Made by a program: the position numbers and the translations under genes | The notes under the pieces: generated by a model | Database searches by the model: none | Seen by the model: only the letters and a program-made list of their open reading frames with translations | What the model was told of the DNA's origin: nothing | IMG/VR virus record: IMGVR_UViG_3300008740_000015 | Span: 1 to 44,609 of that record | Origin: a virus | Length of the DNA: 44,609 nt | Strand: one strand, 5' to 3' | Part shown: positions 5,880 through 43,920 of the stretch, in pieces | Numbering within the stretch: position 1 is the first letter of the stretch | Layout of the letters: the number at the start of each line of letters is the position of its first letter

Positions 5880-6212
5880 CTACTTCATTAAATTCATTAT
5901 TTGGTCCATTCCTAATTCTCCTTCAGGTAAACTTCCATTTGGGGAAGTGGTGTCTCCTGCACCTTGGGGGTTAAATCTTTTTACATCTTTACTTGTAAAA
6001 TTTAAAGCTGTTTCTCCTAACACATCCATATACTTCTGCCTCGTTTCAGTAGATGATATTTGGGGTGTAGGGGTAGGGGAACTTATGTTTTTGCTCTCAT
6101 TTACAACCTGTTTAGGAGCTTTAACAGCTTCTAATAGAATCTCTTTTAATTCATCTTGGATAGCTTCTTTAACTGCTTCCTTAATCATTTTTTTTAATTC
6201 GTTTGCTTTCAT
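5880..6212 (-). CDS. Small protein with a leader-like N-terminal helix, baseplate operon
   Basis: The first 14 residues (MKANELKKMIKEAV) resemble the MKKSELRKIIKEEI leader found on many genes elsewhere in this window. A longer Lys/Glu amphipathic helix to about residue 32 follows, then a Pro/Thr/Ser-rich linker (SPTPTPQISST) and a short C-terminal part. No enzyme motif is seen. Three nt separate it from the gp25-like gene. A TATTTATAA motif lies 10 nt before the start. It may be a head or baseplate accessory carrying the leader, or the similarity may be chance from a Lys/Glu-rich helix. Confidence 0.7.
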   Translation of the reverse strand: MKANELKKMIKEAVKEAIQDELKEILLEAVKAPKQVVNESKNISSPTPTPQISSTETRQKYMDVLGETALNFTSKDVKRFNPQGAGDTTSPNGSLPEGELGMDQIMNLMK

Positions 6213-16063: not shown

Positions 16064-16240
16064 TTAAGCTTTGGGAGAGGGGTTTTCTCTATATTTTTCT
16101 ATTGCCTTTTCTATCAACCTCTCACAAATCTCCCCACTTTCTAAATCTTCAATTTTAGTAGTTTTACTTACTTCAATTTTGATTTTACGATGAGCATCTA
16201 AAACCCCTTGTATGTAGCATATTAATTCGTTGTGAGTCAT
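16064..16240 (-). CDS. Small helical protein (58 residues)
   Basis: The ORF runs ATG at 16240 to TAA at 16064. The start sits inside the stop of the leader-bearing gene upstream (ATGA). The product begins MTHNELICYIQGVLDAHRKI and ends in a Lys/Glu-rich helix (EKAIEKYRENPSPKA). No leader and no recognised domain. It is the last gene of the 17.8-16.1 kb operon. Confidence 0.7.
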   Translation of the reverse strand: MTHNELICYIQGVLDAHRKIKIEVSKTTKIEDLESGEICERLIEKAIEKYRENPSPKA

Positions 16241-16548
16241 TTTTTATTTAAATGTGGGAACATAGCATGAAGACCTTTATTTAAATTCTCCATTTTATTA
16301 AGAATATCAATTACCTGGTAGTTATCAGGAACCATACCTGCTAATTTATCTCCTTGGGGTTTATTAACATACTTACCTAATACTTCAATTAATCTCTCCA
16401 TATGAGAAGCACCATTTCTCAATGTTTTTTGAGTTAACAATAATTGCCTCATAATTTCACTTACATCACCTGCACTCCACTGTTCATTTTCAACAATAGA
16501 TTTACTAAGTTCTTCTTTGATGATTTTCCTTAGTTGTGATCTTTTCAT
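16237..16548 (-). CDS. Leader-bearing small protein, probable capsid cargo
   Basis: The N-terminus MKRSQLRKIIKEELSKSIVE is the type 1 leader. It contains IIKE and ends IVE, both matching the (I/L/V)-x-E cut site of T4-type prohead proteases. The remaining 80 residues are helical (LLLTQKTLRNGASHMERLIE). In T4, internal head proteins carry a similar short N-terminal targeting peptide that is removed. Function of the mature part unknown. Confidence 0.75.
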   Translation of the reverse strand: MKRSQLRKIIKEELSKSIVENEQWSAGDVSEIMRQLLLTQKTLRNGASHMERLIEVLGKYVNKPQGDKLAGMVPDNYQVIDILNKMENLNKGLHAMFPHLNKK

Positions 16549-16556
16549 AATTTATT

Positions 16557-16877
16557 TTATCTAATATGTGTACCGTATCCTCTTATAAGGGCTTCACTTT
16601 CTAATGCAGCCTCAACTTTTTGATCATCCATCCCTTGGATATATAAATACACCTCTCTACCATCCTCAGGATTTCCAATATTCCAACCCTCTTCATTAAT
16701 CAATTTTTCAATAGTTGCAATATATGCTTGGGTATCCATACCCTTTAATTTATTAATAAGTTCTTGTCTAAGATCTAATTGTAAATTTAAGAAATGATGT
16801 TTTAAAGGGTTAATACCTTCATTTAGTGCTCCTTTAAGTTCTTCTCTAATGATTTTTCTTAGTTGTGATTTTTTCAT
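16557..16877 (-). CDS. Leader-bearing small protein
   Basis: The leader is MKKSQLRKIIREELKGALNE, with IIRE and ALNE|G as candidate cut sites. The rest (about 85 residues) is helical, with KLKGMDTQAYIATIEKLIN. No recognised fold. It is part of a six-gene tandem set with short spacers or overlaps. Confidence 0.72.
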   Translation of the reverse strand: MKKSQLRKIIREELKGALNEGINPLKHHFLNLQLDLRQELINKLKGMDTQAYIATIEKLINEEGWNIGNPEDGREVYLYIQGMDDQKVEAALESEALIRGYGTHIR

Positions 16878-16879
16878 AA

Positions 16880-17155
16880 TTATCTAGTTTGTTCAAAATG
16901 ATCCCAAAATTGGTCTATTTCTAAATATCTACCGAAATCTTGAGGGAAATAAACAATTTCATCATCATTAAATCTCATTAATGCAACTACATTGTTAATG
17001 AGGTGTGGGGTTTGAGGATTACCCGCTTTTAGGACTGTATATAAGTTACCATCATTCCCTTTTAGGTTAATTCCGGGTTTTATTTCCATAGTATTTTCTT
17101 TTAATACCTTGGAAATTTCTTCTTTGATAATACGTTTTAATTCAGATTTTTTCAT
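16880..17155 (-). CDS. Leader-bearing small protein, beta-rich body
   Basis: The leader is MKKSELKRIIKEEISKVLKE, followed by N, so VLKE|N and IIKE|E are candidate cut sites. The body (residues 25-91) begins KPGINLKGNDGNLYTVLKAG, which is beta-rich and looks like a small barrel. It resembles SH3/KOW-type folds only loosely. Confidence 0.72.
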   Translation of the reverse strand: MKKSELKRIIKEEISKVLKENTMEIKPGINLKGNDGNLYTVLKAGNPQTPHLINNVVALMRFNDDEIVYFPQDFGRYLEIDQFWDHFEQTR

Positions 17156-17376
17156 TATTTATTTTTCAGCTGTTCAAGATCTCTAATAATTTCATTTATT
17201 AAATTAATAATCTCCTCATTATCATATTTCCCAATTATTGAGTTTAATTCCTCAACTTTATCCTCTATCTGGTCCATTAAGTTATAATCCCAACCACCCT
17301 GGTCCATTAAAGCGCCTTCCTTTAATTCTTTTGAGATTTCTTCTTTGATTATTTGTCTTAGTTGTGATCTTTTCAT
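17155..17376 (-). CDS. Leader-bearing small acidic protein
   Basis: The leader is MKRSQLRQIIKEEISKELKE followed by G, with LKE|G as a possible cut. The 50-residue body is acidic and helical (MDQIEDKVEELNSIIGKYDN). The stop meets the start of the next leader gene at 17155. No function recognised. Confidence 0.72.
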   Translation of the reverse strand: MKRSQLRQIIKEEISKELKEGALMDQGGWDYNLMDQIEDKVEELNSIIGKYDNEEIINLINEIIRDLEQLKNK

Positions 17377-17618
17377 GATGGGTATATTTTATCTAATTCT
17401 AACAACAAATCCATCCAACGCGTTAAGGTATCATCTAATTCCTCAGTAACCTCAGCCCATCTACGTTGATCTTCATCATCAGCACGTTTTATAGTTCGAG
17501 TATCCATAATGGATTTAAATAATAAGAAATCTCTCATTCCGGGAATTTTATTTTCAATTCCTTCATTTACAGATTTTAATTCCTCTTTAATTAATTTTCT
17601 TAATTCTGATTTTTTCAT
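17373..17618 (-). CDS. Leader-bearing small protein with SVNE|G site
   Basis: The leader MKKSELRKLIKEELKSVNEG contains the same SVNE(G) string that recurs inside the 1300-residue protein at 40-44 kb, which ties the two gene sets together. The body is helical and acidic (VTEELDDTLTRWMDLLLELD). It overlaps the neighbour upstream by one base and the gene downstream by 4 nt. Confidence 0.75.
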   Translation of the reverse strand: MKKSELRKLIKEELKSVNEGIENKIPGMRDFLLFKSIMDTRTIKRADDEDQRRWAEVTEELDDTLTRWMDLLLELDKIYPS

Positions 17619-17845
17619 TATTTATAATTTAATCTATTTAGTTTATAAATCATACTTTCTAAAGCATCTTTCAATCCCTCAGCGGTTACATTACCATTCA
17701 GAAACTGGTTTAATTCATCTATGGTAGATAGAACATTTACTTTCATTTCCATTTGTTGGCCTTCTTTTTTCTCCTCCGGGGTAAATTGAAGTGATTCTTT
17801 CAAAATTTCCTCTTTGATAATTTTCCTTAGTTCTGATTTTTTCAT
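17618..17845 (-). CDS. Leader-bearing small protein, first gene of the 17.8 kb operon
   Basis: The leader is MKKSELRKIIKEEILKESLQ, with IIKE|E as a candidate cut. The body is short and helical (MKVNVLSTIDELNQFLNGNV). An early-type promoter and an overlapping TATTTATAA motif both lie just upstream, so this leader operon may be read early and late. Confidence 0.72.
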   Translation of the reverse strand: MKKSELRKIIKEEILKESLQFTPEEKKEGQQMEMKVNVLSTIDELNQFLNGNVTAEGLKDALESMIYKLNRLNYK

Positions 17846-19606: not shown

Positions 19607-19718
19607 AATAGTTCTTACCGAAGATATTTTAAGGGATATGTTAAAATTTGCTGTTAAAAAAGAGTATTATGAAAAAGCAGCTATATTGAGAGATTTTTTA
19701 TCCTATTGTTTTTATTAA
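19596..19718 (+). CDS. Mini-protein with a UVR-like motif (40 residues)
   Basis: The sequence EDILRDMLKFAVKKEYYEKA and then AILRDFL matches the helical-hairpin UVR motif of UvrB/UvrC and of ClpC/McsA-type partners (pattern: A-x-(n)-EKAAxLRD). It is the last gene of the plus-strand array. Its end overlaps the convergent minus-strand leader gene by 21 nt. It could be a UVR-type adaptor or inhibitor of host repair or protease; that is inference. Confidence 0.6.
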   Translation: MRDKIVLTEDILRDMLKFAVKKEYYEKAAILRDFLSYCFY

Positions 19719-20006
19719 CTCCTTATAATAGCCTTGAATAGCTGGGTCATGGTCTTTTAAAGCATCAATGAAGAACGACAACGCGCTTGCTTCTGCATGA
19801 TAATTAACATCTACTAAAGACGTATGCACCTTTTCTAGCTCTTCCACATCCGCTGTTTCCATATCTATGTTCCTTAAATAATCTAACATACCTTTGTAAT
19901 CAAAATTAGCCGAATACATATCACCCGGTTTGAAAGTGGACATTCTAGAGTCTTCTTTTACTAGCTTATTTTCTTTTAAGTATTTTCTTAAATTGAAGTC
20001 TTCCAT
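19698..20006 (-). CDS. Leader type 3 protein, probable capsid cargo
   Basis: The leader MEDFNLRKYLKENKLVKEDS matches two genes at 37-38 kb (MDNFDLRKYL...). The leader holds YLKE|N and LVKE|D, both (L/V)-x-E sites. The body is helical and acidic (NIDMETADVEELEKVHTSLV). It has its own early-type promoter, which sets it apart from the other leader genes. Confidence 0.75.
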   Translation of the reverse strand: MEDFNLRKYLKENKLVKEDSRMSTFKPGDMYSANFDYKGMLDYLRNIDMETADVEELEKVHTSLVDVNYHAEASALSFFIDALKDHDPAIQGYYKELIKTIG

Positions 20007-33134: not shown

Positions 33135-33195
33135 AACCTTTATTTTATCTCTTTATTTACGCCGTAAATATACGAACCCTTCTTCAGGTATCCAA
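33132..33195 (-). repeat. 64-nt exact repeat, copy 2
   Basis: Identical to 29250-29313 from the start codon through both promoter boxes. Confidence 0.9.
33165..33195 (-). promoter_or_regulatory. Early-type promoter of the 33.1-32.5 kb operon
   Basis: TTGG (33195-33192), 19 nt, TATATTTA (33172-33165). The -33 box lies inside the last codons of the upstream gene, which ends ...KYLDT. Confidence 0.78.
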
Positions 33196-33600
33196 ATATT
33201 TTTGCCAGTTTCTTTCTGCTCTTATTGCTTCTTTCTCGAAAGGATGATTACCATAATTAAAACCTTGGTCGTATAGTTTTTTGAATTCCTCTTGGTCTTG
33301 TAATGTATGGGTGTGTTCGTGTAATAATGATCTTATAATATCTTCTTCAGTATTTGTTTTTTCAGAATATAAATAAATTATATCCTTATGGGGATCATAT
33401 CGAGCATCTGGATTGCCTTGTTCTCTTTTTAAGTCTTTAATCCCTACAGCATCTACTTGTTTCCAAATATTTTCATGTACTTCAACAGGTTTCATTTGAC
33501 CACCTAAATCTTTTACTATTTGAGGGTACACTCTATCAACAATTACTTGTATTGAATTATTTTCTAAAACTTCATTTAATATGTGTTTTAGTTTAATCAT
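33184..33600 (-). CDS. Leader type 2 protein with HExxH zinc-metallopeptidase motif
   Basis: The leader MIKLKHILNE|V has the length and ILNE end of the type 2 leaders. Residues 88-105 carry SLLHEHTHTLQDQ with HEHTH = HExxH, and a later Glu (FEKEAIRAERNW) could be the third zinc ligand. Upstream, KDIIYLYSEKTNTEEDIIRS resembles the pre-helix strand of zincins. If the leader targets it to the head, this would be a metallopeptidase carried in the virion. Its last codons overlap the next promoter. Confidence 0.72.
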   Translation of the reverse strand: MIKLKHILNEVLENNSIQVIVDRVYPQIVKDLGGQMKPVEVHENIWKQVDAVGIKDLKREQGNPDARYDPHKDIIYLYSEKTNTEEDIIRSLLHEHTHTLQDQEEFKKLYDQGFNYGNHPFEKEAIRAERNWQKYLDT

Positions 33601-34151
33601 GCAGGTAAGTCAGGTAAGTAAAGTTCAAATTTATCATCAAATGTTCTATATTTATAAGGCTTATCCAGTTTAGATAATTGATTTTTTATATACAGCGCAT
33701 ACATCTTACCTCTCTTACTTGTTGTGTTACCAAATGATGTATCTTCATCTTCTTCTGATTTGGGGGCTATAATTACTTTTCCTATTGGGACATGCTTATC
33801 CCATTCGTTAATCCAACTAATTACAATATCTGTAACTGTTGCCATTATTTCATACTGCTCACCTAAGTTTGTAACAGACATCTCTGAGTCTATTCCATAT
33901 TCATCATGGGCCCAAAAGTTAACATCAACAATTAATCCCTCATATCTATCACTCCACCCATAATCCATCTCTACGGTGTATTTAGTTCCTTTATCTGTTG
34001 TAAATTTGTAAGTAGTTATGTCTTGGGGGGTTGAGAATTCAATATAGTTGGCATATTCTTGAGGTGTTGTAGATCCTCTATCAATAGTCCACTTATACTT
34101 CTTTGCAGATGCATCACCGATCTCATTTAATATATCTATTAATTTAATCAT
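33597..34151 (-). CDS. Leader type 2 protein (184 residues), beta-rich
   Basis: The leader MIKLIDILNE|I is followed by a beta-rich domain (TTYKFTTDKGTKYTVEMDYG, GLIVDVNFWAHDEYG, EYEI-type strands). A short acidic/Ser-Lys linker precedes a C-terminal helix and LYLPDLPA end. It overlaps the metallopeptidase-like gene by 4 nt. No known fold recognised. Confidence 0.7.
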   Translation of the reverse strand: MIKLIDILNEIGDASAKKYKWTIDRGSTTPQEYANYIEFSTPQDITTYKFTTDKGTKYTVEMDYGWSDRYEGLIVDVNFWAHDEYGIDSEMSVTNLGEQYEIMATVTDIVISWINEWDKHVPIGKVIIAPKSEEDEDTSFGNTTSKRGKMYALYIKNQLSKLDKPYKYRTFDDKFELYLPDLPA

Positions 34152-34768
34152 TTAGTATACCCTTCAGGGGTTGAATTAATGGAAGTTTTAAATCCCATTG
34201 ATCCTACTTTATCAGCAATTTTACGAACCCCATCTGTTATTTTATTAAACATTTCTATATCTTCATCCTTTACCCAACTATATTCTTCTGGGTGTCTTAT
34301 TTCTCTAGGAAGGTTTAAATAAAACTCAAACCCATTTTCAGGAGAATAAACATAACCAACATCAGAGGCAGAGCCATTCCCAAATCTATACCAACTATAT
34401 TCATCATAAGCTCTTGCAGGTGTTTCTCTTTTTAAATCCCACATTGCATCCTCAACTTGTTGAAATGCCTTTATAATTTTTTCATCAGGTTTACCATATT
34501 TTTTTTGATGTCGTAATGCTTCATTCTCATCATATACACTCATTACAGTATTTTCAGTTGCACTTTGGGCACGATTTTTCATACTAAAACGTTCACTAAA
34601 TATCCATGGTTGTAATGTTTTTACATGATAGTCTCGTGATCTATTACTAAAATTTTCTTCTGATGGATGGAAAAACCAAACTCCCTCTCTTTCAAGGACG
34701 TCTGTATTTTCATTTAATACCTTAGAAATTTCTTCTTTGATTATTTGTCTTAGTTGGCTTTTTTTCAT
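34148..34768 (-). CDS. Leader type 1 protein (206 residues)
   Basis: The leader MKKSQLRQIIKEEISKVLNE is followed by N, so the VLNE|N and IIKE|E sites are both present. The body (from about residue 26) is aromatic and has VWFFHPSEENFSNRSRDYHV, a KTLQPWIFSERF stretch and WVKDEDIEMF near the end. This is one of the largest leader proteins. Function unknown; an ADP-ribosyltransferase-like fold cannot be excluded. Confidence 0.7.
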   Translation of the reverse strand: MKKSQLRQIIKEEISKVLNENTDVLEREGVWFFHPSEENFSNRSRDYHVKTLQPWIFSERFSMKNRAQSATENTVMSVYDENEALRHQKKYGKPDEKIIKAFQQVEDAMWDLKRETPARAYDEYSWYRFGNGSASDVGYVYSPENGFEFYLNLPREIRHPEEYSWVKDEDIEMFNKITDGVRKIADKVGSMGFKTSINSTPEGYTK

Positions 34769-34781
34769 TTTTTAGTTTTGT

Positions 34782-35039
34782 TTATCTTCTATCTAATTGT
34801 TGTGATGTCGCATCAACACCAGAGCGGTCCCTTACATCTATTCCAAACTTATCTAATAGATTATCCAATTGGTTTCTTTCATCATCAGTTAACCTTATTT
34901 TATTTTTCAAGGTATTAGCAGTTAAATTAAGAGCGACACGGATAAATTCAATATCCCCATCCTCAATAGTAATTTTTCCTTCATTCAATACACTACGTAT
35001 TTCCTCTTTGATGAGTTGTTTTAGTTCTGATTTTTTCAT
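34782..35039 (-). CDS. Leader type 1 small protein (85 residues)
   Basis: The leader MKKSELKQLIKEEIRSVLNE is followed by G (VLNE|G). The body is helical (IEFIRVALNLTANTLKNKIR). It starts 13 nt upstream of the next gene's region and meets its upstream neighbour by 4 nt. Confidence 0.72.
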   Translation of the reverse strand: MKKSELKQLIKEEIRSVLNEGKITIEDGDIEFIRVALNLTANTLKNKIRLTDDERNQLDNLLDKFGIDVRDRSGVDATSQQLDRR

Positions 35040-35305
35040 TTTACTAGTTTTTCCATCTGTTTTAATTTTTCCAATAATGTTGAAAAAATTGGTACTACGG
35101 GACCCAAATTATATTTATCTTTATTATACTCCACCCAATCCTCTACTTTAAGACCAAATTTTTTCTTAGATAATTCATCCATTAAAACAGCTATTTCCCA
35201 ACCATACTCTTTTATTAATTTTTGTGCTGTCTCATTACGAGTTTCTAAACCCATATTTTCTTTTATTTCCTCTTTAATTAGTTTTCTTAGTTCTGATTTT
35301 TTCAT
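35036..35305 (-). CDS. Leader type 1 small protein (89 residues)
   Basis: The leader is MKKSELRKLIKEEIKENMGL, with LIKE|E as the candidate cut. The body has helices (AQKLIKEYGWEIAVLMDELS) and a short Pro-rich turn. Function unknown. Confidence 0.7.
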   Translation of the reverse strand: MKKSELRKLIKEEIKENMGLETRNETAQKLIKEYGWEIAVLMDELSKKKFGLKVEDWVEYNKDKYNLGPVVPIFSTLLEKLKQMEKLVK

Positions 35306-35311
35306 TTTAAT

Positions 35312-35545
35312 TTATCTTAATAAATTTAACACCCATACTAAGGTTTCATGAATGGCATCATGTTCACCACCCGTATACCCATAAACTTTTGTATCATATC
35401 CTGCTCTATGGGCTTCTTTACTATGGTTTTGATGTTTTAGTAATTTCTCTTCTATTTTACTAATAATATCTATCTCACCATTTTCCTCACTTAATACCTT
35501 AGAGATTTCTTCTTTAATTATTTTTTTTAATTCAGATTTTTTCAT
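35312..35545 (-). CDS. Leader type 1 small protein, His-rich (77 residues)
   Basis: The leader MKKSELKKIIKEEISKVLSE is followed by E. The body contains KHQNHSKEAHRAGYDTKVYG and GGEHDAIHETLVWV, so several His could bind metal. Function unknown. Confidence 0.7.
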   Translation of the reverse strand: MKKSELKKIIKEEISKVLSEENGEIDIISKIEEKLLKHQNHSKEAHRAGYDTKVYGYTGGEHDAIHETLVWVLNLLR

Positions 35546-35556
35546 TATTTATTATT

Positions 35557-36141
35557 TTATGAAGGTATTCCTGCCATTATTTTAGTATGTTCTTGACCAC
35601 CAATAGTTCTTGTATACCAACCATTACCTTTTTTAGATGAGTCTGTTGGATGAGCACCATGCCAAGTAGTTTCACCTGAACGTCTTGGCCCTAAAATATC
35701 TCTTACTGTTTCTTCATCATCTATAGTAGGAGCGCCTCCAATTCCAACTAAAGAATTGAATGCAGGACCAGAAACTTCAACATAATTACCTGGGGTTTTT
35801 AATAAGCTAGTTTTATGTTTTAATAAATTTTTAATATTTGCTCTATCTCCATCGTGCCCCATTCCAGTATGTTTGACTCCATGAGAAGTGGTTTTACCAA
35901 ATGTGGCTACGTCTATTTCAGGATCAGCATCTATGTCTGCTACTTTCCAGTATGTTAATTCAGGGTCTAGAACATCAGAAGGTGATTTGTATTTAACATG
36001 ACCCCCAATAGAAGAGTATGCATTTTGAATCAAGTCAAACACTTGATCTTGAATATCTTTTAATTCAGAAGGATCTGTTACTTGAACATATTTACCTTTT
36101 GGATAATTTACTTCATTCAATATGTCTAATAGTTTAATCAT
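35557..36141 (-). CDS. Leader type 2 protein (194 residues), paralogue of the next gene
   Basis: The leader is MIKLLDILNE|V. The body shares a pattern with the gene at 36143-36706: LIQNAYSSIGGHVK, then LDPELTYWKVADIDADPEID, FGKTTSHGVKHTGMGHDG. The conserved GGH, D-x-D-(P) and GHD motifs suggest an enzyme with metal or nucleotide binding. I do not recognise the family. Confidence 0.72.
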   Translation of the reverse strand: MIKLLDILNEVNYPKGKYVQVTDPSELKDIQDQVFDLIQNAYSSIGGHVKYKSPSDVLDPELTYWKVADIDADPEIDVATFGKTTSHGVKHTGMGHDGDRANIKNLLKHKTSLLKTPGNYVEVSGPAFNSLVGIGGAPTIDDEETVRDILGPRRSGETTWHGAHPTDSSKKGNGWYTRTIGGQEHTKIMAGIPS

Positions 36142-36142
36142 T

Positions 36143-36706
36143 TTAAATTATAGGATTACCAAATACTGTTTCAACATGGAAATTTCCAGATGAAACTTCT
36201 CTTTTATATTCTCCCTTATTATCTAACCATTCAACTTCTTGGTTAAAAATTTTTTCAACTTGTTCTTGATTATCTATGTATGGAGTTCCCATACCATATA
36301 AAATATCACCTAATCTGTCTGAGGCCTCAATCCAATATCCTTTTTTCTTTAATTGATTAGATAATTTTTGAATTAATTCTTTTTTTGATTCTCTTTGGTT
36401 ATCATGACCAATTCCTGATATTTTAATTCCAAATGGAGATTTTCTACCAAATAAAACTGAATCAGCTTCAGGATCAATATCATGGTCTATTGCTTCCCAA
36501 TAGTAAAGTCTTGGGTTAAATACTGAATCTACATTTGGTACACTTGGGTGTCCACCAAGTGGGGCATAAGAATTTTGGACTAGAACGAATAAATTATCAG
36601 CTATTTCTTTACGCTGTCCAGCGTCTAACATTTGAATCCATCTATTCTTTTTATCATAGAGTTGATTAAATGTTTCTTCTCTTAATATGTCTAAGAATTT
36701 AATCAT
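36143..36706 (-). CDS. Leader type 2 protein (187 residues), paralogue of its neighbour
   Basis: The leader MIKFLDILRE|E has LRE as the cut site. The body matches the neighbour: LVQNSYAPLGGHPS, FNPRLYYWEAIDHDIDPEAD, FGRKSPFGIKISGIGHD. The paralogues have diverged but kept GGH, YW-x2-(I/A)D and G(I/M)GHD. A shared enzymatic role is likely, such as modification of host targets after injection. Confidence 0.72.
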   Translation of the reverse strand: MIKFLDILREETFNQLYDKKNRWIQMLDAGQRKEIADNLFVLVQNSYAPLGGHPSVPNVDSVFNPRLYYWEAIDHDIDPEADSVLFGRKSPFGIKISGIGHDNQRESKKELIQKLSNQLKKKGYWIEASDRLGDILYGMGTPYIDNQEQVEKIFNQEVEWLDNKGEYKREVSSGNFHVETVFGNPII

Positions 36707-36736
36707 TAATTATTTTACCAGTCTTGATGATATGTT

Positions 36737-36994
36737 TTAAAATGATTTTGGTTCATCTCCTCCAAATTTTTCTCTGAGATGAGCATCTAATTTAGGACCA
36801 AGTTCTTCATAAGCTACTCGGGCCCTCTCCATAGTTTTAGGATCATCACTGTCAAGATGAAGAACAGCATTACTTAATTCTGCAGCTGCTATTTGATAGG
36901 CTTTTTCTTCATCACTATGAAATTGATGGGGAGTTGTTTTGGTTTCTTTTTGAATTTCTTCTCTAATTATTTGTCTTAATTGCGATTTTTTCAT
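36737..36994 (-). CDS. Leader type 1 small protein (85 residues)
   Basis: The leader is MKKSQLRQIIREEIQKETKT, with IIRE|E as a possible cut. The body is helical and acidic (DEEKAYQIAAAELSNAVLHL). Function unknown. Confidence 0.7.
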   Translation of the reverse strand: MKKSQLRQIIREEIQKETKTTPHQFHSDEEKAYQIAAAELSNAVLHLDSDDPKTMERARVAYEELGPKLDAHLREKFGGDEPKSF

Positions 36995-37008
36995 TTTATT
37001 ATTTAATT

Positions 37009-37776
37009 TTAATATTTATTCCAATCTGGGACTTCTTGGTTTATTATCATATTATGATATTTCTGTGCTTTATCATACTCTTCATCTGTGTATAAATAAA
37101 GATCTTCATCACTTTCACCATCAAATTCTAATTCTTCTTCAAAATTCATAGCACTCAATAAACCATCTGTGTCAGTTAAACCTGTAAAAAATGAACCGCT
37201 ACTTTGGTTAGGTAATTTATTAGTTTCTTGACCTATAATCCATTCTTTAAAAAATTCAATCTGGGAAGGAATTCTAGATTGTTTTTGTAATGCTACTAAA
37301 TCATCTACTAAATCTCCCCAATCACCCCCCATAGCTTGGTGGGCTATTAACCTTGCTGCCATTTTAGCATTTAAATCAAGCTCATATTTCCATTCTTCCT
37401 CAGTGTATTTTTTCTGAGATGGGTCTTTGCTTACTTCTTCAATACCATGTCTTTCTTGACCACCACCTAAGTTATAATCAATTTTTTTCCTAGCACCCTC
37501 AATATCGAAAGCATATGTTTGATCTAAAATCTCATCATAATATTCATCAATGAAAGGAACATCCCAACCTTCAGGCATTTCTTCAGGGTTATCTTGCAGA
37601 TAATCAAGTAATCCTTGTACACCTTCTTCATCACCAGGAGTAACCATACCTATTAATTTTTCAGCATAATAAGAAATTTTAGTATTTAAAGCATCTTCCC
37701 CTATATCTTTCATAGAAAGATTTTCTTTTAGTAGCTTATTATCTCCTAAATATTTTTTTAAATCAAAATTGTCCAT
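37009..37776 (-). CDS. Leader type 3 protein (255 residues)
   Basis: The leader MDNFDLKKYLGDNKLLKEN has LLKE|N as a candidate cut. The body is acidic and helical, with GDEEGVQGLLDYLQDNPEEM, a Lys-rich middle, and a long acidic end (EEELEFDGESDEDLYLYTDE). No enzyme motif. Confidence 0.72.
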   Translation of the reverse strand: MDNFDLKKYLGDNKLLKENLSMKDIGEDALNTKISYYAEKLIGMVTPGDEEGVQGLLDYLQDNPEEMPEGWDVPFIDEYYDEILDQTYAFDIEGARKKIDYNLGGGQERHGIEEVSKDPSQKKYTEEEWKYELDLNAKMAARLIAHQAMGGDWGDLVDDLVALQKQSRIPSQIEFFKEWIIGQETNKLPNQSSGSFFTGLTDTDGLLSAMNFEEELEFDGESDEDLYLYTDEEYDKAQKYHNMIINQEVPDWNKY

Positions 37777-37793
37777 TTTATTGTTTTTTTATT

Positions 37794-38333
37794 TTAAAAT
37801 TCATCACTATTTAACCAATCTTGGTATTCTTCACTTGTAAAGAATTCATCACTTAAAAGATTTACATTCATACCCCAAGTTTCAGGGTTATCTTTCATAT
37901 CTTCAATAAATTCTTCCTTACTATCATAATCTTCTCCATCAGTTCTCCAATAATCATTGATATAGTATAAAGTTTCTTCAAAATCTTCAGATTCTTTTAC
38001 AAGCTTGTTTTCAGAAAATGTTACTTTTCCAAATTCACTTAAAAAATCAATAAAATTTTGTATATCAACGTGGGTTTTATAACTTGGCTCATAATCGGAT
38101 TCATCAAATGCTGCAAATTCAGCATCTAAATCAACTTCATAACCAACTCCATTGGGGTGTCTTTCTCTTAAAAAGTCAATAAAGTTTCCTATTTCTTGAA
38201 TTCCTTCAATGCTAGGATTAGAACTATATTCTGCTTCTAAATTTTCAAATTTATCAAGAGCATCATATAAATCAATATTTTCTTTTAAGAGCTTGTTTTC
38301 TGCTAAATATTTTCTTAAATCAAAATTATCCAT
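37794..38333 (-). CDS. Leader type 3 protein (179 residues)
   Basis: I place the start at 38333 because there the protein begins MDNFDLRKYLAENKLLKENI, matching its paralogue; the longer frame to 38396 would add 21 unrelated residues inside the esterase gene. Candidate cuts are YLAE|N and LLKE|N. The body is acidic and helical (FENLEAEYSSNPSIEGIQEI). A second, internal SENKLVKESE echoes the leader end. Confidence 0.75.
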   Translation of the reverse strand: MDNFDLRKYLAENKLLKENIDLYDALDKFENLEAEYSSNPSIEGIQEIGNFIDFLRERHPNGVGYEVDLDAEFAAFDESDYEPSYKTHVDIQNFIDFLSEFGKVTFSENKLVKESEDFEETLYYINDYWRTDGEDYDSKEEFIEDMKDNPETWGMNVNLLSDEFFTSEEYQDWLNSDEF

Positions 38334-38337
38334 TTTT

Positions 38338-38829
38338 TTATTTGTTGTGTTTGTTATAAATACCGCGAAAACTATAAATAGGCACTTGGTGACCAATATT
38401 TTTCATTTCTTCTATTTTGAAATTTTCTAACTCACCTATTTCATCTAAATGCTGAAGAGTTACTTTAGGATCTACTACTCTATCTTTTTCACTTAAAGCA
38501 AGTGTTCCTTTAACTTTATGTTTTCCTTTAACAATATTTCTAAACTCAACACTCCTTTCTTTCAAAGCAGGGTTAAATAAAATTACCTCTACATTTTCAA
38601 AATGTGAAGCTAACATATAAGCAAAATAACCACCCATACTAGAACCAATTATTAAATCAGGTTCACCTAATTCTTTAATTTCTTCTAAAATCTCTTGGAA
38701 TAAATCAGGGTTAAGTTTATAATCCATTTCAGGAGCAAAAACATAACCTTTATCTGAAAGGTATTCAACTTTTTGGCCACCTTGCTGACTTTCTAATCCA
38801 TGTAAATATATTATTTGCTTCATGTTCAC
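38338..38829 (-). CDS. Small alpha/beta-hydrolase esterase (YqiA/UPF0227-like)
   Basis: The 163-residue protein has YLHGLESQQGGQK (oxyanion region), DLIIGSSMGGYFAYMLA (nucleophile Ser in GxSxGG, about residue 64), LSEKDRVVDP (Asp) and NIGHQVP (His), so the catalytic triad is complete. This fits YqiA-type esterases. The promoter's -7 box ends only 4 nt before the ATG at 38829, so the message is probably leaderless or starts at the second Met (38823). It heads the leader-gene block. Confidence 0.8.
   Translation of the reverse strand: MNMKQIIYLHGLESQQGGQKVEYLSDKGYVFAPEMDYKLNPDLFQEILEEIKELGEPDLIIGSSMGGYFAYMLASHFENVEVILFNPALKERSVEFRNIVKGKHKVKGTLALSEKDRVVDPKVTLQHLDEIGELENFKIEEMKNIGHQVPIYSFRGIYNKHNK
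38354..38362 (-). promoter_or_regulatory. TATTTATAA motif before the leader type 3 gene
   Basis: The coding strand reads GGTATTTATAACAAACACAA; the motif ends 20 nt before the ATG at 38333, inside the 3' end of the esterase gene. A second similar CTATTTATAG lies 10 nt upstream. Confidence 0.42.
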
Positions 38830-40017: not shown

Positions 40018-43000
40018 TTATTTTAAGTAGTTAGGAGTCAATGATTCTTTAACCATTTTCTTAAAGTTAAATTCTTTAATAGGGCAAAATCCTAGTAAAT
40101 CACTTCCCCTACCTACAATTTCATATTCATACCCAAAGTCTTCATTTAACTTATTTTCAAATAAGTCTGTAGCTATTTTATTAAATCTTTTATTGATCTC
40201 ATTATTATCCATCCCACAAACTTCATCTTTAGATAATTCTCTTCTATCAATTGCTTCAATTGAATCATCTTTTTTATCAACAGCAACAATATGATAACTA
40301 TTAGTTTTATTGGATACTACTACAGCAGGTTCAACATCTGAGGATGTTAAAACTTCACCTTCTAATTCAGCTTCATTAACTGATTCTTTATATGGAGTTT
40401 TCTTAGATATCTTGTCTAATTTCCATGGGTCCATTAAAAACCACATTGGTTTCTTTGCGCGAGGTAACCATCCATAAGCAACGTCTAACTTAACTTCCTT
40501 TGATCTCTTTTGAAACCCAACAGAGTCAGATATTGTATACGTAGCTTCATATGCATCGTCATCATTATTGGGTATTTTTCTACCTAATGTCATAGTCAAG
40601 GGTTTTCTATCATCTACATCTCTATAAACTTTGATTTTAGAACCAATTTTATTTTCCACTTCATTAACTGATTCTTCTAATCCTCTTTTATTCATTTCAT
40701 CAAGAACAGATTTCAGTAAAGCCATTTCTGCTTCATTTGGTCTTGTACCTGTTGTTAAAAATTGATCCCTTAATCTTGTAAGAGCTTCATCTGTTAATTC
40801 TTCTACTGCTAATGGTTGAATATCTTCATTAACTGATTCATCATTAACTGTAGCTGGTTCAACCCCAGTTCTTTTAGCATAATTTTGAACATCTCTTAGA
40901 AGTTTTAGTAATTTATTTTTATCTAATTCTTCTTCTTCTTTACTCATTTCCCCTTCAAGTCTATTTATTAATGACTTCATGTAATTTCTCTTACCTTTAG
41001 GAAGTGCATCTATATTGGTTTGTATAAGGCCAATAAGTTCTAGAACATCTTCCTTTTTTAAATTTTTAGCCGCTCGTTTATCCTTGAACTTCTTTTTAAA
41101 GTGTCGAATTACATCACCCCAACTATCACCCCCCATAAATGAACCACCAACAATTGCACTAGGACCAAGCTGAACAAGTAATCCACCTAGCACTAATCCT
41201 ATTCCCCCACCCATAGCTAGTAAAGGTTGCCACCATTCAAATCCTTCATTAATTGATTCTTCCATTGAATGGGCTTCTAATTCACCTGCTTCTTCATTTG
41301 GTGTTTCAAAATCTTCCATTATGTTTTCATCACCCATAAAAGCATACATTTCAGCAGCATTTAAAAGTTCTTCAGGACTTATCTGTAGGTTTTGATTACT
41401 AATCATTTCCTTAGCTGCAGCTAATTTATCTTTTTCTTCCATATCAAAATGCATGGGTCCTAAATAACTATCTATAAACTCTTCAACTGTATCATCATTC
41501 ACATTTTCATTAACTAAACCCTTTATTTCATCATCATCATAAGTTGTTCCTGCTATTACATATTCATAGCGATTACCTTTTTTAATTCTTTTACTTATGG
41601 TTCCTGTTTTTTCTTTACCTTTTTTAACATCAGGATCTTTACCTACTCCACCTTTATAAGTTCTTGAGATTATTACTTTATCACCTTTTTTATATTTAGA
41701 TTCATACATACTTAAATGTCCTAATTCAGTTTTTATATCAATAATCCTATTTTCTAAATCTTCTAACTCAGAACCATATCTATCAGCTATTTCTCCTCCT
41801 TCAGGTTCAGCTTCTTGCTCCATATCAATCATTAATTGATCTCTTCTATCATTTAAATCTGCAAGTTCATCTTGTAAATTAGTATCAGCATGAAATTTAT
41901 CCATCCAACTAGAACCATACTTTTTATCTAATGCTGCTTGTTTAGATTTTTCATCTTCAAGATCCATTTGTGATGCTCTTTGTTTCATTAAAACAGGATC
42001 ATTGTGGTCTAAGTATTCTTCTAATCCTCTTTCTCTACGTAATTGTTCTTTATCCTGAGCTAATTGATCTCTCATTGCGTGTCTTAAATATTCCATTCTA
42101 GGATTATCTGGAAGGGTGTCTATTTCCCCGCTTTTTAATTTTTGGAGCCAATATATTTTAGCTTTATCATCTACAATATCTCCTTCATCTATAAGATCTG
42201 GACCAGCTGGTTTTTTACCTATTTTACCATTTTTACCATAACCACAAGTGCCTTCATCAATTGGTGACCCCGCAAAGTATGAATCTTCAACATATTCTAT
42301 ATACTCTTGAGGTATGCCGTAAGAATTGTCTAAATCATCAAATGCCTCATCATATATTTCATGCCACTGATCATCATCATAAATTCCTAATTTGTTTGAA
42401 ACTTTAAAAAGTTCAGAAAGGTGATCTTCTAATCTTCCTGCAATGTTAAGATCAACTATACTGTAGGCATCATTTTGGATAATGTCTCCTTTAGCCCATC
42501 TAACTGCGCTTCGGAAAGTTTGACCATCTATAGATTCATTAATTGATTCTTCCATATGGTCATATTGATCTTCTTCATCTTCACCATCATAATCATCAAC
42601 ACTGTAATAATCATCTTCTTCATCCCAACTATCATCTTGGGTTTCATCTTCATATTCAGGGGAATAATCGTACATATCCTCTCCAGATTTGGTATAATTA
42701 CCTTCTTTGGATTCTATATGATCTAATACTTTTGTTAAAGCGAATTCTAATATTCTTTCATAAGCTGCATCTCCAGATGAACCTACTGCTTTATCTAATA
42801 TAGAAGCTAAAGTATCCCTTAATGGGTTATTTGAATTTACTAAATAAGAATGAGCAGGGCCTGCTGTTTCAGTTCCATAACCTTCATAAAATTTATCCCC
42901 ATCATTCCACCAACGATAAACAATTTTATTAATTGCTCTTAACATTTCACCTTCTACAGTACCTGTGTTACCTGATCCAGGAACTAATTCACCATATAAA

Positions 43001-43920
43001 GCTTCATTTCTTTCTTCTAATTCACCTTCAACAAATCCTTCATTAACTGATTTAGACCGATTAATTAAATCCATTTGTTTTTTCATTAATCTATCACCTT
43101 TTTCTTTGCCAAAAGTATCACTCCAAGTTCTGTCTAAATCCGTTTGTTCTTTCTCCCATTCTTCATGTGATTGGCCTGGATGAATTGCTTCACAGTCATG
43201 GTCTTCTTCTAAATTTTCTGCATCCCATTTGTCATAATCTTCATCAGTAAAGTCATCATCATATTCAACTTTACCTTCATCTCCTGGGAATACAACTGCA
43301 CCTGAAGTGTATCCTCCTACTAATCCATCATCAAACATAACAAATACTATTCCTTCTTCAATATCAATTTCTTTAACAACTCCAGTCTCACCTTGTTTAT
43401 TTAAAGGGTCAGTAGTTAAACTATTAGATACTACTACTTTATCACCTACTCTATAATCAGTAATTTCGTATTTTACATCTCCAAACCCATAATTGTCTTC
43501 AGGATCTCTAAATCCTTCTTCAACTGTTTTTTCATCTATAAAGAAAGCAAATGATGCATCCCATGTTCTTTCACCAGGTTCTTCTTCCCAATCATCTGTA
43601 CTACCAAATTCAAAATTGTATTCTTCAGTTCGTTCGTTTGCGGCATCAAATGCCCTTTTTAAAGTATTTTCTACTTCATCATTCCAAACTTGTAATGAAG
43701 GGGTCCTTAAATAAACACCCTCTCCTTCTGGTCCTCTATATCCTCTTATATGTTTTTCAATATCAATCCCTACTTTATCCTCAATAGTGTTTATTAATAG
43801 TTCTATATCAGGGTGGGAATCAAGAGACCTTAAATCATCTATGGAATATCCTCTTTCTCTATTTTCTTTGAGGTAACTAGGTTTTAATGCCTCTTTAATA
43901 AGTCTTTTGAAATTTTTCAT
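40018..43920 (-). CDS. 1300-residue polyprotein-like protein with internal ESINE/ESVNE sites
   Basis: The leader [11 protein letters not shown] (residues 1-10) matches T4 CTS length, and YLKE|N follows at 19. Candidate cut sites recur at SVNE 291-294, SINE 459-462, LVNE 802-805, SINE 889-892, SVNE 1029-1032, 1084-1087 and 1180-1183, and LNE 1258-1260. Between them are KOW-like barrels (about 155-220, 741-800), an acidic stretch (410-456), [19 protein letters not shown] (558-576), a coiled coil (640-735) and a hydrophobic segment (897-930). The last 15 residues ([15 protein letters not shown]) echo residues 4-18. I infer a head-packaged protein cut by the prohead protease. Confidence 0.85.

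Follow-up and report, generated by a model that had tools for sequence, protein, structure and literature searches.

A predicted head-targeted polyprotein with exchangeable modules in a T4-like phage

In phages, cleavage by the head protease is known for maturation and for scaffold removal, and each T4 internal protein has its own tag. In T4, replacing the Glu at the cut (P1) by Asp stops processing and leaves targeting intact. The first ten residues of T4 IPIII are enough for capsid targeting, with residues 8 and 10 controlling its processing; the T4 protease gp21 cuts after L/I-X-E, and in the T4 protein Alt processing takes place at the N- and the C-terminus (PMC9026906). The equivalent protease of SPN3US cuts after A-X-E and removes its own C-terminal propeptide (PMC10052503). 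For the internal proteins of T4, anti-restriction roles after injection have been described (PMC12373910). Many protease sites within one head protein are found in T4 gp22, gp67 and gp68 and in SPN3US gp53 and gp54 (PMC9026906; PMC10052503). Polyvalent proteins (Iyer et al. 2017, PMC5512222) combine many disparate domains in one chain and are probably delivered at infection, and an analogy with the polyproteins of RNA viruses has already been drawn for them. In the open-access literature that was searched, no phage polyprotein cut by the head protease is reported.

Here we describe a candidate in a 44,609-nucleotide stretch of viral DNA (IMG/VR record IMGVR_UViG_3300008740_000015; hereafter the window). 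On the minus strand, 40018-43920 holds an uninterrupted open reading frame (ORF) of 1300 codons (~148 kDa) that starts with ATG and whose product matched no Pfam, PHROG or NCBIfam family. It contains S[IV]NE six times (at residues 291, 459, 889, 1029, 1084 and 1180), five of the copies being ES[IV]NE, and together with LVNE (803-805) and KLNE (1258-1260) there are eight copies of [ILV]NE. An earlier note, made from the letters of this DNA, had counted at least six recurrences of ESINE, ESVNE and similar strings and placed them between unrelated segments; both observations hold, the six S[IV]NE copies indeed separating unrelated segments, and the SVNE↓G that it reported in the leader of a gene at 17.4 kb is there as well (17373-17618, MKKSELRKLIKEELKSVNE↓G; arrows mark presumed cuts). 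In 2000 shuffles of the ORF's composition S[ILV]NE had a mean of 0.09 (maximum 2) and [ILV]NE a mean of 1.5 (maximum 6), and no shuffle reached the observed counts. At 4.6 S[ILV]NE per 1000 aa, the ORF is about fifteen times as dense in this motif as the remaining minus-strand ORFs of the window, which have 0.3. The near-identical DNA word TCA[GA]TTAATGAA encodes each of the six S[IV]NE copies (codons TCA [GA]TT AAT GAA; p ~5e-5 when tested against codon usage in the gene), and the same codon word is used in all four copies of the relative L093 (p ~5e-4), so the motif is repeated at the DNA level too; near-identical words also encode the copies in L226 and L177. Shuffles, density and the codon-usage test together rule out chance recurrence. 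The looser rule [ILV]xE shows no enrichment (30 sites seen, 29 expected from shuffling), so its count was dropped as evidence and what is informative is the particular word and where it stands. With [ILV]xE so common, the assignment of cut sites among these 30 is tentative.

Table 1. Predicted polyprotein, its modules and the other leader-bearing genes of the window (residue numbers refer to the polyprotein)
Feature	Coordinates	Strand	Basis or remark
Predicted capsid-targeted polyprotein P0002, 1300 aa	40018..43920	(-)	Single open frame
N-terminal leader, residues 1-10, predicted capsid-targeting	43891..43920	(-)	Hydrophobic residue 8, Glu 10, cf. T4 IPIII
Module, residues 20-135, end TVEE↓G	43516..43863	(-)	Homology boundary with L005
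Beta-rich module, residues 136-294, end KSVNE↓G	43039..43515	(-)	L005 homology; AF2 strands
Helical module with acidic tail (FVEGELE), residues 295-462, end EESINE↓S	42535..43038	(-)	Found in 39 viral loci; AF2
Module, residues 463-556, end SPIDE↓G	42253..42534	(-)	Weak similarity to L067 58-168, permuted order
23-aa cassette (TCGYG), residues 557-579	42184..42252	(-)	Directly after leaders in L187, L179, L195, L183
Region, residues 580-805, end LVNE↓N	41506..42183	(-)	Homology with L177, L077, L088, L178, L008
Acidic module, residues 806-892, end EESINE↓G	41245..41505	(-)	End linker pLDDT <50
Module, residues 893-1032, hydrophobic stretch then basic helices, end DESVNE↓D	40825..41244	(-)	L093, L095, L096
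Module, residues 1033-1087, end EESVNE↓V	40660..40824	(-)	Linker pLDDT <50
Beta-rich module, residues 1088-1183, end KESVNE↓A	40372..40659	(-)	L095 homology
Module, residues 1184-1260, end NKLNE↓D	40141..40371	(-)	Linker pLDDT <50
C-terminal piece, second leader-like copy at residues 1283-1300	40021..40140	(-)	Resembles N-terminus
Six small leader-bearing genes, MKKSELRKIIKEEL...[ILV]xE↓	16237..17845	(-)	
Leader-bearing gene, MEDFNLRKYLKENKLVKE↓	19698..20006	(-)	
Eleven leader-bearing genes, MIKLxxILNE↓, MKKS..., MDNFDLRKYL...KE↓	33184..38396	(-)	
Leader-like gene, MKANELKKMIKEAVKEAI...	5880..6212	(-)	Inside baseplate gene run

The joints listed in Table 1 include variants of the ES[IV]NE word (VEE↓G, IDE↓G, LVNE↓N and KLNE↓D), and a second possible leader cut, LKE↓N, lies at residue 19. 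Relatives were found by module-wise and neighbour-gene searches; whole-mosaic searches with one protein yield few of them because the modules shuffle. Their mosaic genes are located by terminase, portal or protease genes, those of L095 and L096 adjoining terminase and portal. The earlier note had proposed comparing segment order among related phages, and the order does differ, in L095 and L096, in L067 and in L177. The module at residues 893-1032 is 66% identical to one in an 831-aa ORF of L093 that contains five joints of the type S[ILV]NE; there the module (GFEWWQPLL) follows DSVNE↓G. In L095 and L096 the KIKVYR and FEWW modules have the order opposite to that in the window, with the joint SELNE↓VFEWW, and the L095 counterpart of residues 1088-1183 (47% identical) stands before, not after, the FEWW module. 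The counterpart of residues 136-294 in L005 5001-6671 is 51% identical and begins directly after STLQE↓G, at the boundary that corresponds to residue 135. Residues 580-805 hold a YWLQK module, a second module and a KOW-like barrel (742-805); the first of these (580-635) has 80% identity with a module of L177 that has SVNE at both sides and is followed there by FVEGELE, an order unlike that of the window, and residues 636-741 are common to L077, L088, L178 and L008. The whole region may be one piece, or may have further sites that are uncertain.

The FVEGELE module is found in several settings. In L197 it comes straight after a bare leader (MDNFDLTKYLAEGKLLKE↓FVGGTLEKRN), in L187 after a leader plus the TCGYG cassette (MKELIRFRQFLNE↓GTCGYG...LMKE↓FVGG), and in L067 the same cassette immediately precedes FVGGELE. 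In L178, L184 and L190 the module lies deep within polyproteins of 500-730 aa, and in the huge phages L003, L203, L205 and L207 it is a standalone protein with no leader. Its junctions in T4-like contigs are strict [ILV]xE↓ in 17 of 20 cases, MKE↓ in two and KLE in one, so the joints have the residues in which ordinary capsid-targeting leaders terminate. Across clades, P3=[ILV] and P1=E are kept at the junctions, and P2 and the DNA word vary (LMKE, SLNE, VVTE, IKE). An AF2 model of residues 136-580 has a confident helical domain at 295-425 (pLDDT >90 over most of the core), and the FVGGELE module is predicted to be a compact fold; a Foldseek search with this model gave no PDB match and only unnamed phage proteins. 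The model of residues 742-1300 was poor (mean pLDDT 52) and fold assignment was abandoned there. All six linkers of that part lie within stretches of pLDDT <50, which is weak evidence given that 45% of its residues are below 50.

Among 75 mosaic proteins, 184 of 484 distinct homology boundaries lie within 5 residues of an [ILV]xE, against 104.5 expected (z=8.8, a value that overstates independence since the boundaries stem from related proteins). Control motifs were flat ([ILV]xD, z -1.4; [ILV]xK, z 0.1; [AGS]xE, z -1.7) or mildly raised ([FYWM]xE, z 2.8; E.[ILV], z 3.7). Joints and leaders alike have the L/I-X-E expected at the mature ends of gp21-type substrates. The prohead protease gene itself was not found in the window, which is a fragment; of 15 records that are related or share modules, 11 have it as Pfam family PF03420. 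In nearly all relatives the joint site, (S)LNE↓G, recurs just behind the catalytic domain of the gp21-type protease; the forms seen there are SLNE↓G, LQE↓G, IKE↓G and LREG, and more distant phages, in which the protease domain continues into a scaffold-like tail, have RVNE↓ at the equivalent place. In L226 7232-8992, L227 10635-12674 and L229 4105-5793 a protease domain and a long scaffold-like C-terminal region share one frame. No co-variation was seen among relatives between the P2 residue of the protease's own site and that of the linkers, as is expected if P2 is free.

Leaders are common in the window. Twenty genes carry one, the ORF at 40018-43920 and 19 others, with several related leader types (MKKSELRKIIKEEL...LNE↓G, MIKLLDILNE↓, MDNFDLRKYLAENKLLKE↓N; a further leader sequence is MDNFDLKKYLAENKLLKE), and otherwise unrelated proteins of the same phage have leaders in common. 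An [ILV]xE is present at residues 8-26 in 20/20 of them and in 10/39 other minus-strand ORFs, a comparison that is descriptive because the leader genes were chosen by pattern. The first module of the L177 polyprotein has a homologue (E ~1e-6) in the body of the leader protein at 16237-16548, and the body of the protein at 19698..20006 aligns with internal parts of larger proteins of the head cluster in L168 and L173. The leader protein at 37794-38396 (minus strand, ATG at 38333) has a second, internal leader echo, SENKLVKE↓S, which suggests a two-module version of the polyprotein design. Tandem paralogous leader proteins of no known family, 36% identical, are encoded at 35557-36141 and 36143-36706, also on the minus strand. 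At 33184-33600 (minus strand) the leader MIKLKHILNE precedes a zincin-like protein with an HExxH motif that weakly matches the Pfam family MPTase-PolyVal (PF18818, E 7e-4, under the curated cutoff), a polyvalent-type peptidase that might be packaged too.

Some proteins of the relatives show similar elements in other contexts. The head-cluster protein L228 14395-15498 has an apparent whole leader, Met included, embedded within it (...LKENKMISLVNILNE↓TPLGEK, ...KMISLVNILNE↓T), which looks like a fossil of gene fusion. The polyprotein L093 3760-6255, considered together with L226 5496-7202, has a stretch, NNAMATPGSVNGMGNVSLPGNPGTQ, that is similar to the N-terminal part of the major capsid protein of its own phage (L093). 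Gene 203 of phage immuto (L008 25582-26823) codes for a scaffold-like, acidic protein in which one module is duplicated in tandem, the copies being preceded by VNE↓GFEQW or LEE↓GFEQW, and which has a C-terminal RWQKLAGI motif that recurs near the ends of other head-cluster proteins.

Permutation of the modules, their single leader-bearing versions, the boundary statistics, the site beside the protease domain and the T4-like leader together point to a precursor of modules joined by head-protease sites. It is possible to read the same protein as a component of the prohead core, cut many times for clearance from the head, so that the pieces are waste and not cargo. In favour of this reading, the protease cuts core proteins of T4 into several pieces, most of which are lost from the head (PMC9026906); the duplicated VNE↓GFEQW... 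module of immuto-type phages is located in their acidic scaffold-like protein; and leader-gene bodies recur in head-cluster proteins. Against it, the modules are conserved and domain-sized (up to 26 kDa), they are common to single leader proteins and to standalone proteins of unrelated huge phages, and one of them is the predicted compact fold. We regard a core component as improbable.

There is likewise only a small chance that the protein stays uncut and works as one long chain, the motif being either a scar left when leader-bearing genes fused repeatedly or a DNA word at which recombination is favoured. The near-identical words in the window, L093, L226 and L177 would fit such an origin, as would leader fossils inside proteins such as that of L228; but P3 and P1 are kept while P2 and the DNA word vary, as a constraint at the protein level predicts, and real leaders end in the same residues as the joints. 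Very unlikely, finally, is an effector resembling the polyvalent proteins and released by a metallopeptidase (MPTase) instead of the head protease. MPTase domains have been proposed to process polyvalent proteins (PMC5512222), and the window does encode, at 33184-33600, the HExxH protein with its weak MPTase-PolyVal match and its own leader. In the ORF at 40018-43920 no MPTase domain was found, and its linkers agree with the cutting rule of the head protease, L/I-X-E, as well as with the site that adjoins the protease domain.

We prefer, and consider probable, the reading that the ORF encodes a polyprotein targeted to the head, from which the prohead protease releases about eleven internal or ejection proteins, built as exchangeable cassettes. 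The short N-terminal leader would draw one precursor into the growing head, perhaps helped by the second leader copy at the C-terminus. A T4 gp21-type protease would then cut after [I/L/V]-X-E, mostly ES[I/V]NE, at some ten joints; the leader would be lost, and about eleven small proteins of about 6-26 kDa would remain in the head, probably to be ejected with the DNA like the T4 internal proteins. The joints would also serve as exchange points, at which modules are reordered between phages and shift between single-module leader proteins and polyproteins. Packaging, cleavage, ejection and an effector role of the pieces are what we infer from these comparisons. The earlier note had proposed one precursor of modules joined by head-protease sites and cut into about eight to ten pieces; comparative sequence evidence supports the precursor, and the likely pieces larger than 5 kDa number 11 by our count.

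Compared with the described systems, the protein resembles T4 IPI, IPII, IPIII and Alt in its 10-residue leader with a hydrophobic residue 8 and Glu 10 (PMC9026906), and the window resembles T4 in having unrelated bodies behind common leaders, as late genes; the processing of Alt at both ends has a parallel in the second, C-terminal leader-like copy. The T4 internal proteins are single-body genes, whereas here about eleven bodies with repeated protease-like sites stand behind one leader, and the protein is therefore a variant and no plain member of that class. It shares with T4 gp22, gp67 and gp68 and with SPN3US gp53 and gp54 the many sites in one head protein, but the extra cuts of the T4 core and SPN3US proteins destroy a scaffold or propeptide, while those predicted here would separate conserved, exchangeable domains. 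It is analogous to the polyvalent proteins and not a member of them: their marker domains (MPTase, ART, ParB and others) were not found in the ORF with Pfam, PHROG and NCBIfam, and processing is predicted at repeated linkers by the head protease and not, as proposed for the polyvalent proteins, by an embedded metallopeptidase. Further similar proteins are gene 191 of Flavobacterium phage immuto (MW353176) and SSM2_109 of cyanophage S-SM2, mosaics encoded close to terminase, some of whose modules are shared and whose joints are [ILV]xE; they differ in having few SVNE words and other module content, and are annotated as hypothetical.

Judged from its sequence, the polyprotein would be a new variant of T4 internal-protein processing by gp21. 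We give about an even chance to the broader proposal that T4-like phages, probably of Bacteroidota hosts, use the head protease as a polyprotein processor and thereby have an open-ended cassette platform for injected proteins behind one packaging tag, in which the site is also a conserved DNA word, so that cassettes are gained, lost, reordered and swapped with single-cassette genes. If this is true, a phage could bring numerous proteins into its head at a fixed ratio with a single tag. A sequence rule would also be at hand for spotting proteins that are packaged, and probably injected, in the many phage genomes that lack annotation, and the long-noted analogy between phage effectors and RNA-virus polyproteins would become directly testable.
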